Both the position numbers and the translations under genes were made by a program. Shown here in pieces: positions 1-9,097 of a DNA stretch of 26,951 nucleotides. The notes under the pieces are model-generated. The model did not search any database and was not told the DNA's origin. It was given only the letters and a program-made list of their open reading frames with translations. Position 1 is the first letter of the stretch, and the number at the start of each line of letters is the position of its first letter. This DNA is from a virus: the IMG/VR virus record IMGVR_UViG_3300030098_005581, positions 1-26,951 of that record; one strand, given 5' to 3'.

Positions 1-566
1 CACCACTCATCAAGAAGAGTGTAGCTGAATGTCTTGCACCCGGTTGTCGCAATTTGCAACCGAGCCAAGCGCATCATCTCTTCAAAGTCCGACTCGTTGG
101 CTAACACCTGGCAGCCTGCGCTCCACCTATCAACTCGAGTACTGTGCTCGCCCGCTTTGTGCAGATTGATACCGAAGAAACCAGTGTCCACCTTGCCTGT
201 CTTGTCGAGCTCACCATCTCTATCGGCATCCCGCCAGACAGCGACCTCACCGCCACGCTGACACAGCGCTTCGTATTTTCCTGCGTGTGAATCAATCTCC
301 CATATACCACGGTAGTGACCAGGGCACAGAATTGCGGTGCCTTTAACCTGCAGTGGGTTAAGAAGGTAGTACTGACCTGGGTCCGTGGTGGCGGTCCAGT
401 AGTGGCCCACCCACTGCCCATCCTTGCGGTAGGTGCAGGTCAGCATGTCGTCGAATTTGTTTGGGGTGCCGTTTCGTTTTCGGACACCGACGATATTCAA
501 ATCATATTGGCCGTCGAAGACGGGGTGGCCCAAGGATTTCTTTCGGGCCAGTATTGGCGGCAACAT
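1..566 (-). CDS. Putative endolysin-like enzyme with L,D-transpeptidase-type His/Ser-Gly-Cys motif (3' end off the window)
   Basis: The reading frame is open from the ATG at 566 to the window edge (188 codons seen, no stop), so the C-terminus is missing. His136 in GINLHKAGEH is followed by SAGC at residues 149-152 (Ser149, Gly151, Cys152). This resembles the H-x(n)-S/T-H-G-C active site of YkuD-type L,D-transpeptidases, with a shorter spacer and Ala in place of His. Residues 113-121 read DADRDGELD, a DxDxDG calcium-loop pattern. There is no signal peptide, which fits an enzyme that needs a holin to reach the peptidoglycan. The start lies 1 base after the stop of a Lys/Pro-rich mini-ORF, and the Shine-Dalgarno is weak (AAGG, about 12 nt away), so translation is probably coupled. 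Its place directly after the holin supports a lysis role. The family link is motif-based inference; a conserved phage protein of another catalytic class is possible. Confidence 0.75.
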   Translation of the reverse strand, partial: MLPPILARKKSLGHPVFDGQYDLNIVGVRKRNGTPNKFDDMLTCTYRKDGQWVGHYWTATTDPGQYYLLNPLQVKGTAILCPGHYRGIWEIDSHAGKYEALCQRGGEVAVWRDADRDGELDKTGKVDTGFFGINLHKAGEHSTRVDRWSAGCQVLANESDFEEMMRLARLQIATTGCKTFSYTLLDEW

Positions 567-567
567 C

Positions 568-654
568 TCAACGCTTCACCTTTTTAGGTTTGGTTTTCTT
601 TGGCTTCACCTTCTTCGGCTTCGGCTTCGGCTTCCATGTTGGTCTTGCTACCAT
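568..654 (-). CDS. Lys/Pro-rich 28-residue mini-ORF in the lysis cassette
   Basis: A short ORF from an ATG at 654 to a TGA at 568. It has 12 Lys, 2 Arg, 6 Pro and no acidic residue (net charge about +14). The centre is a run of KP and KPKK units built on an imperfect GAAGCC DNA repeat. Its ATG overlaps the TAG of the upstream -1 frame ORF (ATGGTAG), and its TGA lies 1 base before the ATG of the endolysin-like gene. That is the overlap style of a translated, coupled gene. Against it: no good Shine-Dalgarno is seen, and repeated DNA can make simple peptides in any frame. If made, it could be a small cationic lysis factor or merely a leader that couples translation. No family is recognised. Confidence 0.4.
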   Translation of the reverse strand: MVARPTWKPKPKPKKVKPKKTKPKKVKR

Positions 655-854
655 CTCAATCGCAATCCCCCGAATGCTGCCCAGTCCTTATTCGTATCGA
701 CACTTGCGCTAGCGAATAGGCTGAGCGCATCAGAAGCTCTTGACTCAACACTGCCAACAAGCCGACCGACATCGCCATCGATGCTACCGCTAAGCTCAAG
801 CAAACCTGAGCCTGGGTTAAGGGTTTCGACTCGCGCCAGTGCATCACTTACTGC
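648..854 (-). CDS. -1 frame extension of the holin-like ORF (possible frameshift product)
   Basis: Just where the holin-like frame stops, the -1 frame becomes the one that looks coding. It gives 68 residues ending in DWAAFGGLRLRW and a TAG at 648, with many G-first codons and an ordinary residue mix. It contains no ATG or GTG. The only usual alternative starts are a TTG inside it (49-residue product) or a CTG, both with poor ribosome sites. If reached by -1 slippage at C CCA AAG, the fused product would be 144 residues: the two membrane segments of the holin plus a soluble tail containing ELSGSIDGDVGRLVGSV. A one-base sequencing error in the CCC or AAA run would give the same picture, in which case the true gene is a single 144-residue ORF. 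Function of the extension is unknown. Confidence 0.55.
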   Translation of the reverse strand, partial: AVSDALARVETLNPGSGLLELSGSIDGDVGRLVGSVESRASDALSLFASASVDTNKDWAAFGGLRLRW

Positions 855-1081
855 TTTGGGACCTTGGCCGCCTCCTTGACGGCTTCGGTTGAGGCAAGAG
901 CTCTTTTAACAGTTGCTCGGGACTGAGAGTAGCTAGCTCCACAAACGGCAGCAAGGATAGGCCCGCCGACTTGCGCCCATTGGGAGTCAGAAAAGATAGC
1001 GCACAAACAGCCGCCAATCATCCCTAAGAGAGTCATCAGAAACTCTGAGCTTTTAAGCCCGTTGGTCTTACCCTGTATCAT
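848..1081 (-). CDS. Putative holin, two membrane segments
   Basis: A 77-residue protein from the ATG at 1081, chosen because AGGAG lies 8 nt upstream; longer in-frame starts lack this. The N-terminus is soluble and Lys-containing. Two hydrophobic segments follow, at about residues 12-30 (EFLMTLLGMIGGCLCAIF) and 35-50 (WAQVGGPILAAVCGASY), with a short SDSQ turn between. A charged Ala/Lys tail follows. Size, two-segment topology and a neighbouring peptidoglycan-active enzyme fit a class II-like holin, the inner-membrane pore that times lysis. The start overlaps the end of the upstream gene by 14 bp. The stop follows a slippery sequence, and a longer frameshifted form may exist. No specific holin family can be assigned from sequence alone. 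Confidence 0.72.
   Translation of the reverse strand: MIQGKTNGLKSSEFLMTLLGMIGGCLCAIFSDSQWAQVGGPILAAVCGASYSQSRATVKRALASTEAVKEAAKVPKQ
854..877 (-). promoter_or_regulatory. Candidate -1 ribosomal frameshift signal
   Basis: In the sense strand the end of the holin-like ORF reads AAGGAGG, 10 nt, CCCAAAG, then CAG TAA. C CCA AAG has the X XXY YYZ form in the zero frame, so both tRNAs can re-pair after a -1 step. The Shine-Dalgarno-like AAGGAGG exactly 10 nt upstream copies the arrangement that stimulates frameshifting in Escherichia coli dnaX. A downstream structure is less convincing: AGTG-ATG-CACT begins 5 nt after the slip site, and a GCTCA/TGAGC stem lies further on. Confidence 0.5.
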
Positions 1082-4231: not shown

Positions 4232-7200
4232 CTATCTATCCCTCACATCTCGTTGTCGGTAGTAAGATTGTTTCAAATCACGGGGGTATGCCTTCATGAA
4301 TCCCCCGGCAACGAACGGTGTCTCGAGTCTCAATGGTCCCTTACTTGGGTCCCATGTCCCTATACTATACAGCCAATCCAGGTTTCCCCAATACCTGGCG
4401 ATCATTGCCCTTGTTTGAAGGTCATACGCCTGGTCATTCATCCCCACATTTGAGTAAAATTCCACAGTTTTCTGCACTGCGTCAGTAATGGGAAGGAAGC
4501 TCTTGACCCCCTGTGCCACAGCCATCTTGGCCCCGGACAGGTTCCACTCAAACATTTCAGCGAAGTCTTCAAAGGACGCAAAGTCCCCCGGATGGGGAAG
4601 CGTGGGCTCAAGCCCCTGAATCTTTCGACCACGGGTATCTTTCCCCGTAAACATCCAGGTGAGAGCTCGGACCTCAGGGCCGCCGAGTTGCATCCACATG
4701 CCTCGCTCATCCTGAAGCAGAGCGCGAAGCGTGTTCTGGGGTGCATCCCAGTAGGCCTGCATGTCCCCGCCATAAGGAACCTTTAGGTGCTTAGGGATAG
4801 CCCACGACGGAAGAGTGAAGCTTGCCTGAGACTGCAGCCACGGTGCCCCGATGCCTGGAAATACGTGCTCTTCCCTTGTCTGCTCGTCAATCAGCCTTGA
4901 TATTCTATCCAGGTTAGCCATCCGCTCGGGATGCTCCATGGTCATTCGCATGGTCCATGGGATGATGTGGCGGTTCCAACTGTAAAAGCCGAAGACGTTG
5001 CGCAGGGTGTTCTTTTCGAACGGGGTCATGCGAAGCCAGTGACCGGCTTCCTTGTGGACGACATCCGCAACCTTGGCCCAGTTCCTTTTGTCCATCCCCT
5101 CAAGCCTGTTGAAGATGGTCACCAGCTTCTGGAAATCATCACCAAACTGGGCCGCTTGCTGCAGGCCAAGCTTCTTCGTGGCGTGCTCAACACCCTTGTA
5201 CAGCCGACCGGCAATGCTTGTTCCCGACCCGTACATGTCCAGGCCGTACTTCATTTCCATCTGGCGTATCAGGCCATACTTCTGAGCGGTATCTAGGACC
5301 TCTCCGATAGACACCTGCTGCCCACTCGAAAACTTCCATAGGTGAGAGCGAGCAGCGTCATCGCCGCCATAGGCCGCAACGAACGCTGTCTTTGATGCAG
5401 CCCCCGAGAGCTCGGGGTTAAACAGCCTCAGCCCGTTGTTTACGTAGGCGAGCCCTATGCCACCCTGCATATTGGTCGTGATGAACGGTAGGCCGCGAGC
5501 GCTGGTGTGGCCAAGCCTCCACAGGCTACCGAGCGGCTGAATGTATTCCTTGTACCACTGCGCCGCCATTTGAACGGGGGAGCTCTCGCTTATCTTGTAG
5601 AGCTCTCGCTCAACCTTGTTCATGCTTTGAAGGCGTTGAAGGTTTGCGGACTGCAGTGGGAGCAGGGTGTCTATCTGCTGAGCAATTGCCCTGGGGACCA
5701 CGACCTTACCGGCGTCCGAAAGAAACGCCCCTTCCCTTCCTGTTGCCTTGAGCCACTCCCTGTTCGCATGGCCATCAAGGATGGTCATCTGCAGCCCATA
5801 CTTCTCACTCTCGACACTTTCACCGAGAGCAGCCTTGGCCCTAGCCTCACCGACAGCAACGCCCCAGTCCTCAAGGACGCCCCTGTGCCTGCGGAGCCTG
5901 GCTTGTGCGGCCTCTATATCCAAAAGCCTTTGCTCTGCTTGTGCGACTGACTCGCCCGCCGCCCTTGCCTTACCGTAAGCCTCAGTGACTCTTGCCCCGC
6001 CCGCCCGCTCGGCAGCAATCCGACGACCTTTCATGGCCTCTTCGATGGCACCCGGAACAGCTTCTGCCAAGCCAGCCTCAAGCCCTTTTGCCGCATCGGC
6101 CATCTCTGCCTTGATGACTTCATCTAGCCCCGTCTCGGGCACCGGCTTCCCTAAGGCCTCCCACATCTTCTCCGTCTCATCGCCGAATCCGGTTGCACGA
6201 GGGAGATCGGTGATGGCTGCCTGGCGTTGAGAGATCGCCTCCGCTTCAGCAGCCAAGGTCTTAAGCTCTTCATCGATGCCATCTATGACCTTTTGATAGG
6301 CGGCTGACTTCTTGGTGAGGTCCTCTGTTTTGCGCCCGAGAGACTCGCTTGCCTTAATCGCCGCCCTCTCTCTGGCATTGGCCTGCATATCGGCACGAGC
6401 AATGTCTTTAGCCAGCTGCGCATCGAATCGCTCCAGCTGATTAAAGTGCATCCCCTCCCCGTAAAGACCCTCTCTCTCAAGAACCTCTCGATAACCCTTG
6501 AGCATCATCGAGGTCTCAACCGAGCGGCCAACCCTGTCGCCGTAGGCCTTGGTCGCCCTTTCTAGGTCCTTGATGGGGAACGCGTCAGCAAGTGCTGTTC
6601 GGGTGTGAGTGTACCGGGTGTTTGCTTTTCCTGCTGACTCAAGACGGCCTGGACCAATTCTGGAGAATGCTGCTTGGTCAATCAGATAGTCAACCAGGGC
6701 CTTGCCTCCGGGCATGTCTTCAACATCAATAAACTTGCCGGTGAGCGTCTCGCGAAACTCGTTGATGTCGGCATCCCGCATGTCTTCGACCTTGCCACCG
6801 GGCCCGTGCTTCTTTCGCATGAAGGCGTTTGCCCTCTTTCGCATACGGTCAACCGCGTTCTGCAGGGGTCGCACGGAGTAAGGTGTGGCTCCGGTCTTAT
6901 TGATAACGCCAAACCCTATCCGGCCAAGCAGGTCCTGGATGAGCTCGAAGTCAACCTCGTGTGGAAGGTAGTTGGCCTTCTCCCCCATCACGGCCACTTT
7001 GCCACGGTTAATCTTTCTGGCAGCCCCGGCATCAACCATTAAGCTCCGAAGCGTTGAGAACACGTCGGCCTCAGCTATCTCCTTGAACCCCTGGAAGAGC
7101 CCAGGGTCTAGGTCAAAGAGCTCACCGGGGCTCATCTTGCCGCTTAGCGTATCCCAGAGAGCCTCTCTTGCTTCGTTCTTATCGGGCAGCTTTGAGCGGC

Positions 7201-9097
7201 GCATCGCTTTCTTCGCGAGCATTACCCCTTGCCGCGAAAGCTCGCGAAACTTCTGAGCCATGACGACCGCTTCGTCCTCGGCGAGCATCAGCTGGTTGAC
7301 AATGTCATCACCGTATCCAGCGGACACAGCATTGAGCTCTTTGCGCAGCCCGTCGAACTGAGAGCCAGACACGAACAGCTTCCGAAACTTGGCAATGGCG
7401 TTTCTCTTGAAATCAGATGCGCCTTCAATGCGACGCATCACACTCTGGGCTCGCCAGTCTCCACCCTCTGCTCGCGCCGCAACCTTTCCGACCGCAGCAC
7501 TCTTTGCGTAAGAGCCAGCCTTAAACGCGGGCTTTGCGACAGCCCACGCCCCCTTGGCCATGTAGAACTCGGGCCCAATGATAAGCCCCCCAAGAAGGGG
7601 CACGAGCTCTGGGTTCTCAATAACGAACTCGCCACCATCCGCGTGAATCATTGCGTTAACGTAGTCGATGGTTCTCTCGTCGGCGTCCTGGTAGGCGGTA
7701 ACCCCTCGGGCAAGCTCAGAATCAACAGCTGCCTGAGCTCTCCGTACCATTCCGTTCCGAAGAGAGCGCACTTCTTCGCTCATCGTGTTGATGTCTTCGG
7801 GCTCGAGTCCGAGCGCATTGAAAAACCCCTTGTGCTTTACGGGGTCGGTGTCCGGCAGCAGCATCTTGTAGAGCCCGCCAATAACACCAGCAGCCATGTC
7901 TTTTCTTGCGGTGCTTTCTTGGCTGAACACTCCAGTGACCGTGTCCACAAGGAACGTGCGAAGAAGGGAGCCTTTATTCATCCCTAAAAAGCCCCGAGTC
8001 TCAATGCTTCGAAGCAGGTCCTTGCGCTGCTTGGCGTACTCAGCCGCCTCTTCGGGAACTATTGCTTCAACGGTTCGATAGCCCCTGCCTGGCATATCCA
8101 TTGCGAGAGTGTACGGGTCTTTAACCTTGTAGGTGGTTATCTCGTCTGCTGCCTTCTTAAGAGCAGATGCTCTCTTAAGCTTCTCAACCATGCCGCCATA
8201 CTCGGCAATAATGTCCTCGGGTCGAAACTCATCAAGGGATGGCGGGCCCTCAATGTTCGCAGGCATAGGGGTTCCTGGCTCTTCGACCCCAACGCGGTCC
8301 CGGAATTGACCAAGGGCTGTGCCCATGCCGCCAGAGAGCAGGCGCATCCCTGAGCCGAGGATGTAGTCAACCAGCCCCGTCTCCTGCATTGGCCTCTCGG
8401 CAGGAGGGGTCTCGTCTGCCATGGTTCTTTGGAGCTCGCGGAACATCTCAGGGTAAGCCTTCGGGTTCACGAAGAAGTCCAGGGCCCTGCTGTCCGGTAT
8501 TCGCCCGGATGCGTACATCTCACCATAGGCGCGGTAAAAGTTAATCTCCGGCGGCAGCCCGGCCTTCGAGCGGCGCATCCCCTCTATTCCCTGCGTTAAT
8601 GTGGCGGGGCCCTTGAGGTAACCAGAGCGCATCATTCTCATGAACTCGTAGTTATCCCGGTCGTACATCTCCTTGTGCTTTTTAATGAGCGACTTCTTGT
8701 GACGCTTCATCTGCGCAATGAACGGCTCATCCTCGAACAGGGGCTCTTTCGCGTACTGGTCTAGCAACCCCTTGGCTTCAATCCATCGAAGGTCATCAAC
8801 ACCGACACCCTCCAAATCTGGCCGGGTTTGCCTTAGGCGAACCTCAGCATAGCTGCGCCGAGCCGCCTTCTCCGACAAATCAAACAGGGTCCTTCGAGAC
8901 TTTTCGTACAGGTCGGCGGGGAGGCTCTGGTCTTGGGTGAGCATCTTGTTTTTGTAGATATCAGTAGCCCAGCCTCGGAACTTGTTGAGCTCCGAAAGAC
9001 CCATAGTAAAAGCTTCCTTGGTCTTCAGGGCATCCTGCTCAGCCTCGGTAAGATACTGACCAAAGAACGGGTCTTCTATGTTGTAGTACTGGGCCAT
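4232..9097 (-). CDS. Giant internal-virion/ejection-type protein, 1621 residues
   Basis: The largest gene of the window. It starts MAQYYNIEDPFFGQYLTEAE at the ATG at 9097, 3 bases after the previous stop, with only a weak GGA ribosome site. The first 500 residues are helical and charged. A hydrophobic stretch rich in Gly/Ala (LVPLLGGLIIGPEFYMAKG) lies near residue 510. Residues about 900-1110 are Ala/Glu/Arg/Lys-rich coiled coil. The last 400 residues are aromatic-rich, with FGFYSWNRHIIPWTM starting near 1369 and many Trp/Tyr/Pro. A giant helical protein downstream of the nozzle gene and two coiled-coil proteins resembles the last ejection protein of podoviruses (T7 gp16 or P22 gp16 role). 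I see no lytic transglycosylase motif and no RNA polymerase signature. Alternatives are another internal core protein or an unknown enzyme. Confidence 0.7.
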   Translation of the reverse strand: MAQYYNIEDPFFGQYLTEAEQDALKTKEAFTMGLSELNKFRGWATDIYKNKMLTQDQSLPADLYEKSRRTLFDLSEKAARRSYAEVRLRQTRPDLEGVGVDDLRWIEAKGLLDQYAKEPLFEDEPFIAQMKRHKKSLIKKHKEMYDRDNYEFMRMMRSGYLKGPATLTQGIEGMRRSKAGLPPEINFYRAYGEMYASGRIPDSRALDFFVNPKAYPEMFRELQRTMADETPPAERPMQETGLVDYILGSGMRLLSGGMGTALGQFRDRVGVEEPGTPMPANIEGPPSLDEFRPEDIIAEYGGMVEKLKRASALKKAADEITTYKVKDPYTLAMDMPGRGYRTVEAIVPEEAAEYAKQRKDLLRSIETRGFLGMNKGSLLRTFLVDTVTGVFSQESTARKDMAAGVIGGLYKMLLPDTDPVKHKGFFNALGLEPEDINTMSEEVRSLRNGMVRRAQAAVDSELARGVTAYQDADERTIDYVNAMIHADGGEFVIENPELVPLLGGLIIGPEFYMAKGAWAVAKPAFKAGSYAKSAAVGKVAARAEGGDWRAQSVMRRIEGASDFKRNAIAKFRKLFVSGSQFDGLRKELNAVSAGYGDDIVNQLMLAEDEAVVMAQKFRELSRQGVMLAKKAMRRSKLPDKNEAREALWDTLSGKMSPGELFDLDPGLFQGFKEIAEADVFSTLRSLMVDAGAARKINRGKVAVMGEKANYLPHEVDFELIQDLLGRIGFGVINKTGATPYSVRPLQNAVDRMRKRANAFMRKKHGPGGKVEDMRDADINEFRETLTGKFIDVEDMPGGKALVDYLIDQAAFSRIGPGRLESAGKANTRYTHTRTALADAFPIKDLERATKAYGDRVGRSVETSMMLKGYREVLEREGLYGEGMHFNQLERFDAQLAKDIARADMQANARERAAIKASESLGRKTEDLTKKSAAYQKVIDGIDEELKTLAAEAEAISQRQAAITDLPRATGFGDETEKMWEALGKPVPETGLDEVIKAEMADAAKGLEAGLAEAVPGAIEEAMKGRRIAAERAGGARVTEAYGKARAAGESVAQAEQRLLDIEAAQARLRRHRGVLEDWGVAVGEARAKAALGESVESEKYGLQMTILDGHANREWLKATGREGAFLSDAGKVVVPRAIAQQIDTLLPLQSANLQRLQSMNKVERELYKISESSPVQMAAQWYKEYIQPLGSLWRLGHTSARGLPFITTNMQGGIGLAYVNNGLRLFNPELSGAASKTAFVAAYGGDDAARSHLWKFSSGQQVSIGEVLDTAQKYGLIRQMEMKYGLDMYGSGTSIAGRLYKGVEHATKKLGLQQAAQFGDDFQKLVTIFNRLEGMDKRNWAKVADVVHKEAGHWLRMTPFEKNTLRNVFGFYSWNRHIIPWTMRMTMEHPERMANLDRISRLIDEQTREEHVFPGIGAPWLQSQASFTLPSWAIPKHLKVPYGGDMQAYWDAPQNTLRALLQDERGMWMQLGGPEVRALTWMFTGKDTRGRKIQGLEPTLPHPGDFASFEDFAEMFEWNLSGAKMAVAQGVKSFLPITDAVQKTVEFYSNVGMNDQAYDLQTRAMIARYWGNLDWLYSIGTWDPSKGPLRLETPFVAGGFMKAYPRDLKQSYYRQRDVRDR

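Follow-up and report, generated by a model that had tools for sequence, protein, structure and literature searches.

A lysis-type cassette at the left end of the window

The window analysed here comprises the 26,951 bases of IMG/VR virus record IMGVR_UViG_3300030098_005581, which comes from an uncultured phage and carries portal, major head, terminase and S74-chaperone tail-fibre genes on its minus strand. A 1,621-residue open reading frame (ORF) among these structural genes (4232-9097, minus strand) has no match in a PHROG search at an E-value of 0.001. The left end of the window forms a lysis-type cassette, in which an upstream ORF (1391-1068), a gene that we call A (1081-848) and an endolysin-like gene (566-3) follow one another on the minus strand. 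The upstream ORF, which overlaps the start of A, encodes a hydrophobic segment and, after it, a coiled-coil-like stretch; it matches phrog_8692, a family of unknown function, with an E-value of 5.5e-5. In the listed relatives, A is always preceded by a comparable ORF of 100-135 residues in the corresponding position. Its outline resembles that of an inner-membrane spanin; its charge pattern is atypical and it received no family assignment.

Gene A (848-1081, minus strand) encodes 77 residues and ends with TAA at 850-848. Two helices are predicted at residues 12-29 and 34-72 in an AlphaFold model of low confidence (pLDDT 60), and the pN/pS ratio of A in its relatives is 0.15-0.28. Comparison with family profiles matched A to no named family and to no holin family. 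We infer that A is holin-like from its two predicted helices and its place in the lysis cassette beside endolysin genes; a phrog_33083 endolysin or an M15 peptidase lies downstream, as for a class II holin. Judged from its charge pattern alone, A would have a cytoplasmic N-terminus and a cytoplasmic C-terminus, provided that each helix crosses the membrane.

The endolysin-like gene (3-566, minus strand) lies directly downstream, is truncated by the window edge and matches phrog_3000 (E = 3.5e-35) as well as the endolysin family phrog_33083 (E = 2.3e-18). In three relatives (L010, L045 and L060) an M15 peptidase gene takes its place. The endolysin is swapped between unrelated families (M15 versus the phrog_3000/33083 type of the window and L034), while A and the two ORFs described below, B and C, form a constant unit in the style of a modular cassette.

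Gene A ends on a conserved slippery heptamer followed by an open -1 frame

Gene A closes with GTC CCA AAG CAG TAA, which contains the heptamer C_CCA_AAG (854-860, minus strand) in phase with A; a Shine-Dalgarno (SD)-like AAGGAGG (871-877, minus strand) lies 10 nt upstream of the heptamer. Beyond this point the -1 frame continues for 68 codons, designated C (651-854, minus strand; stop TAG at 650-648), such that A joined to C would form a 144-residue protein, A-C. This frame contains three TTG codons and no ATG or GTG. An earlier, sequence-only reading of this DNA had described the ending of A, the zero-frame heptamer, the spacing of AAGGAGG and the 68 codons lacking ATG or GTG, all of which hold, on a minus strand that the reading had left unstated. 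A 28-codon Lys/Pro-rich ORF (568-654, minus strand; MVARPTWKPKPKPKKVKPKKTKPKKVKR) starts within the end of C and stops just before the endolysin-like gene, and short Lys-rich ORFs occupy the same place in several relatives, for example L043 and L060.

Searching IMG/VR with A as the query gave 15 true relatives and afterwards nine more; another candidate, L017, was dropped as a chance match. The C domain of L034, used alone as the query, recovered 12 additional contigs, all of which have a diverged A with an in-phase heptamer upstream and the same frame relation of A to C. The compared set consists of the window and 35 further IMG/VR loci (n = 36, of which 34 are distinct across the compared region). 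L047 was excluded from the counts because its contig end falls within C, and L002 and L009, both counted, share one contig. That contig, IMGVR_UViG_3300030099_006113 (68,173 bases), holds two diverged A/B/C units about 34 kb apart, which points to a duplication or to the joining of two related phage genomes during assembly. A comparison of the A-C proteins of the window and of L034 with 50,697 named phage records gave no match, and neither did a search of bacterial and archaeal genome contigs.

Frameshifted homologues, which the sequence-only reading had proposed to seek among relatives, occur throughout the set: every one of the 36 loci combines X_XXA_AAG in phase with A and a -1 frame that stays open past A's stop. 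The heptamers are of three kinds only, G_GGA_AAG (18 loci), A_AAA_AAG (17 loci) and C_CCA_AAG (one locus). They are retained despite changes of their own letters, with the wobble base and the next codon changing together across the contexts GTA AAA AAG, GCA AAA AAG, GTG GGA AAG, CTG GGA AAG, TTG GGA AAG, ATG GGA AAG and GTC CCA AAG. Given the encoded amino acids, the probability of a heptamer at this site is 0.02-0.14 per locus, against an observed 36 of 36; because the loci share ancestry, these chances are not simply multiplied. At the level of sequence, the comparison confirms that the -1 frame relation is real, conserved and more than chance. The same three heptamers are the most efficient of all 64 -1 heptamers measured in E. 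coli, where C_CCA_AAG combined with a strong pseudoknot reached 54% (PMC4066793).

The extension C was examined by a frame test run within groups, as a pooled alignment of all groups is blurred by uncertain alignment. Four groups that align without gaps give pN/pS ratios of 0.16, 0.19, 0.12 and 0.15 over the singly coded part of C, where third positions are the most variable and the ratios of the other two frames are near or above 1. By these ratios C is under purifying selection. No conserved start codon exists in its frame among the loci compared.

An upstream Shine-Dalgarno-like element is frequent

The sequence-only reading had cast the heptamer and the SD-like element together as a dnaX-style signal. 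The heptamer stands as described above, but the SD-like element is not obligatory. GAGG occurs 7-13 nt upstream of the heptamer in 30 of 36 loci: the spacing is 13 nt in 26 of these, 10 nt in the window, L015 and L016, and 7 nt in a single locus. The other six loci lack it. Against random synonymous codons, most loci show ordinary anti-SD pairing (P of about 0.2; 0.31 in the window), and the amino acids encoded there account for the strength of the element; several members of the L032-L045 group stand out, with P = 0.007-0.035. Across 13 close relatives only eight codons of A lack synonymous variation: these include the GCG and GAG codons that carry the SD-like element, and two others are AAA and AAG of the slip site. 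A role for the SD-like element as a stimulator is plausible from these patterns. Downstream of the slip site, no RNA hairpin was consistently better than shuffled sequences.

A further ORF, B, overlaps the extension

The sequence-only reading missed an ORF, B (656-844, minus strand), that lies in the frame of A and overlaps C. Its 62 residues comprise a basic/polar N-terminus and one hydrophobic helix. The start of B is found one codon past A's stop in all 36 loci (ATG in 28, GTG in eight), and its product, with a basic or polar N-terminus ahead of a hydrophobic stretch, ranges in length from 36 to 64 codons. When the amino acids of C are held fixed and codons are drawn at random, the hydrophobicity of B is reached in at most about 3% of draws and usually in fewer than 1% (P = 0.001 in the window); L007 was left out of this scoring because its intervening codon is TGA. 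Codon columns of C with synonymous variation make up 23 of 44 in the B overlap versus 78 of 88 elsewhere in a first group (Fisher, 8e-6), 15 of 43 versus 59 of 88 in a second group (7e-4), and 32 of 44 versus 19 of 20 in a wider set (0.05). In its own frame, B has pN/pS ratios of 0.57 and 0.38 in two groups and of 0.92 in a group of three sequences (L033, L045 and L046), where no own-frame selection is apparent. B is likely a real third ORF on these sequence comparisons, and is less secure than C because of this last ratio.

Programmed frameshifting compared with other origins of C

The layout could also arise if C were translated separately, either through reinitiation following termination at the stop of A or from some weak -1-frame start, with the heptamer incidental. 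Stop-start coupling is common in phages, and the -1 frame does have a start at the junction in some loci, either ATG (L007, L010, L011 and L060) or TTG (L003, L004 and L008), for which reinitiation stays a candidate. However, the window, L015 and L032-L035 have no -1-frame start there, the start kept in all 36 loci is that of B in the other frame, and reinitiation leaves the universal heptamer unexplained; we judge this origin improbable. Slippage of RNA polymerase on an A/G run, rather than of ribosomes, would account for the shift at the half of the loci in which A_AAA_AAG provides six A in a row, slippage on A-runs being known. It is a poorer match to the half with GGGAAAG or CCCAAAG, where runs reach three letters at most and the exact phase and the -1 relation are still retained, and we consider it very improbable. 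Because the evidence consists of assembled contigs, one might suspect that a single-base error in sequencing or assembly, or pseudogene decay, has split a longer gene, and the sequence-only reading had named sequencing error as the main rival. The same layout in 35 further IMG/VR loci leads us to reject it: the -1 relation recurs across many samples and purifying selection acts on both sides of the junction, leaving this explanation next to no probability.

We put the probability of a programmed -1 frameshift that yields a 77-residue A and a 144-residue A-C at roughly 0.88. We infer slippage, and a rate at which most ribosomes would still terminate at A's stop to give the 77-residue holin-like protein. 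Some ribosomes would slip by -1 on C_CCA_AAG, with tRNA-Pro re-pairing with CCC and tRNA-Lys with AAA, and would read on into C to produce the 144-residue A-C as a minor form. B would probably be made by reinitiation past A's stop, as a third small membrane protein.

Predicted fold and possible roles of the extension

An AlphaFold2 model of C built from 23 sequences has a mean pLDDT of 76, rising to 80-89 from residue 21 on. It shows four antiparallel strands, preceded by a start that is modelled poorly. The five best Foldseek matches in the PDB are membrane anchors of trimeric autotransporters (Hia three times, AtaA and YadA), with TM scores of 0.65-0.67 and E-values of 0.0048 (Hia) to 0.34; no Foldseek match to C has an E-value below 0.001. 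Against a viral library, phage-encoded YadA-like anchors lead and cyanophage OMP-like domains rank lower. All 36 C domains end in G[LI][KRQ]x[RK][WF], which we take to resemble the terminal beta-signal of outer-membrane proteins. The four strands, as modelled, and the C-terminal aromatic residue of a YadA-like anchor are both present, a resemblance that is structural only: Pfam scans of 23 members found no YadA-anchor family, a Phage_OMP match to C was marginal (E = 0.047), and hhalign of the C profile with the phiEco32 adhesin, a phage YadA-like protein, gave a probability of 1%. PDB sequence matches to C were to designed repeat proteins and were judged to be chance. The phiEco32 adhesin was also considered as an analogy for a lysis role and set aside; its gene lies outside the phiEco32 lysis region and therefore lends no support of this kind. 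The sequence-only reading had proposed two membrane proteins of 77 and 144 residues, in a ratio that could tune the timing of lysis. Comparison strongly supports the two forms, but the extension is predicted to be a beta-sheet domain and not simply a further stretch of membrane protein.

A-C would combine the two-helix membrane domain of A with a four-stranded beta domain bearing a terminal beta-signal-like motif, and the two forms, sharing the membrane domain, could co-assemble. If C brings an outer-membrane-directed domain, A-C may act in a spanin-like manner in a cassette lacking a recognized lipoprotein spanin, so that disruption of the outer membrane would be coupled to the opening of holes in the inner one. 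A simple-pattern search of the window and nine relatives turned up no ORF around the cassette with a convincing lipobox that could serve as an o-spanin, which would leave the outer-membrane role unfilled. Two features weigh against placing C there: the cytoplasmic C-terminus predicted from the charges of A, if both helices span, would keep C away from the outer membrane, and the stretch that joins A to C appears short for a span across the periplasm. We hold an outer-membrane role of C only tentatively. Nearly as likely is that the frameshift is true and C is a cytoplasmic regulator, with A-C behaving like an antiholin, poisoning oligomers of A and fixing when lysis occurs, and having no outer-membrane role. 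Holin/antiholin pairs that share one sequence are known, and the predicted hairpin of A with positive ends suits a cytoplasmic C-terminus; the terminal aromatic motif in every C domain, the fold matches to outer-membrane anchors and the lack of an o-spanin candidate fit such a regulator less well, and we regard it as possible though somewhat unlikely. The full outer-membrane reading, in which one start gives a hole former and, at a fixed ratio, a frameshifted, spanin-like form with an autotransporter-like beta-anchor, and in which the DNA of the extension also encodes a third membrane protein, is likewise possible though somewhat unlikely when taken as a whole.

Relation to known systems

Programmed -1 slips are well known in the tail-assembly genes of phages, and the known cases in tailed phages are chiefly in tail genes. 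The tail-assembly chaperones (lambda G/GT, P2 E/E+E' and phiCbK gp93/94) likewise use a heptamer placed close to the end of a small gene, from which a minor, C-terminally extended form arises. Sites of the types A_AAA_AAC and G_GGA_AAC have been reported in phiCbK-like phages (PMC3556154), and P2-like phages have no downstream hairpin (PMC3091744). Here, in contrast, the gene encodes a predicted membrane protein and belongs to a lysis cassette rather than to the interval separating the tail tube gene from the tape-measure gene. Its extension is also overlapped by a second ORF, B. The signals of E. coli dnaX and the IS3 family share the heptamer class (A_AAA_AAG, V_VVA_AAG) and an upstream SD-like element with most loci, but no 3' hairpin or pseudoknot was found here, and the SD spacing is mostly 13 nt where the element is present.

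With two-component and unimolecular spanins (Rz/Rz1, T1 gp11) A-C has in common its position in the lysis cassette, overlapping frames and perhaps a bridge from the inner to the outer membrane. It differs in lacking a lipobox, in that the outer-membrane element would be a C-terminal beta domain, and in its short-looking inter-membrane link. The anchors of YadA, Hia and AtaA and of phage YadA-like proteins resemble C in having four antiparallel strands after a helical stretch and a C-terminal aromatic residue. There is, however, no significant sequence match, A-C is much smaller, C is reached only by the proposed frameshift, and A-C begins with a predicted membrane domain of two helices where those proteins have a plain signal peptide and a passenger.

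The decoding mechanism is already known. In the open-access literature, a scope that excludes most subscription papers, we found no report of a DNA-phage holin or other lysis-cassette gene decoded by -1 frameshifting, and the accessible part of a 2016 review of frameshifting makes no mention of holins; within that literature, use of the mechanism in a DNA-phage lysis gene appears to be new. Of 677 surveyed phages, 91 have no recognizable spanin (PMC6139136). If confirmed, the arrangement would provide fixed-ratio control for lysis proteins and a candidate answer to how some phages that lack recognizable spanins breach the outer membrane. It would also serve as a warning that standard gene calling would overlook both C and B.
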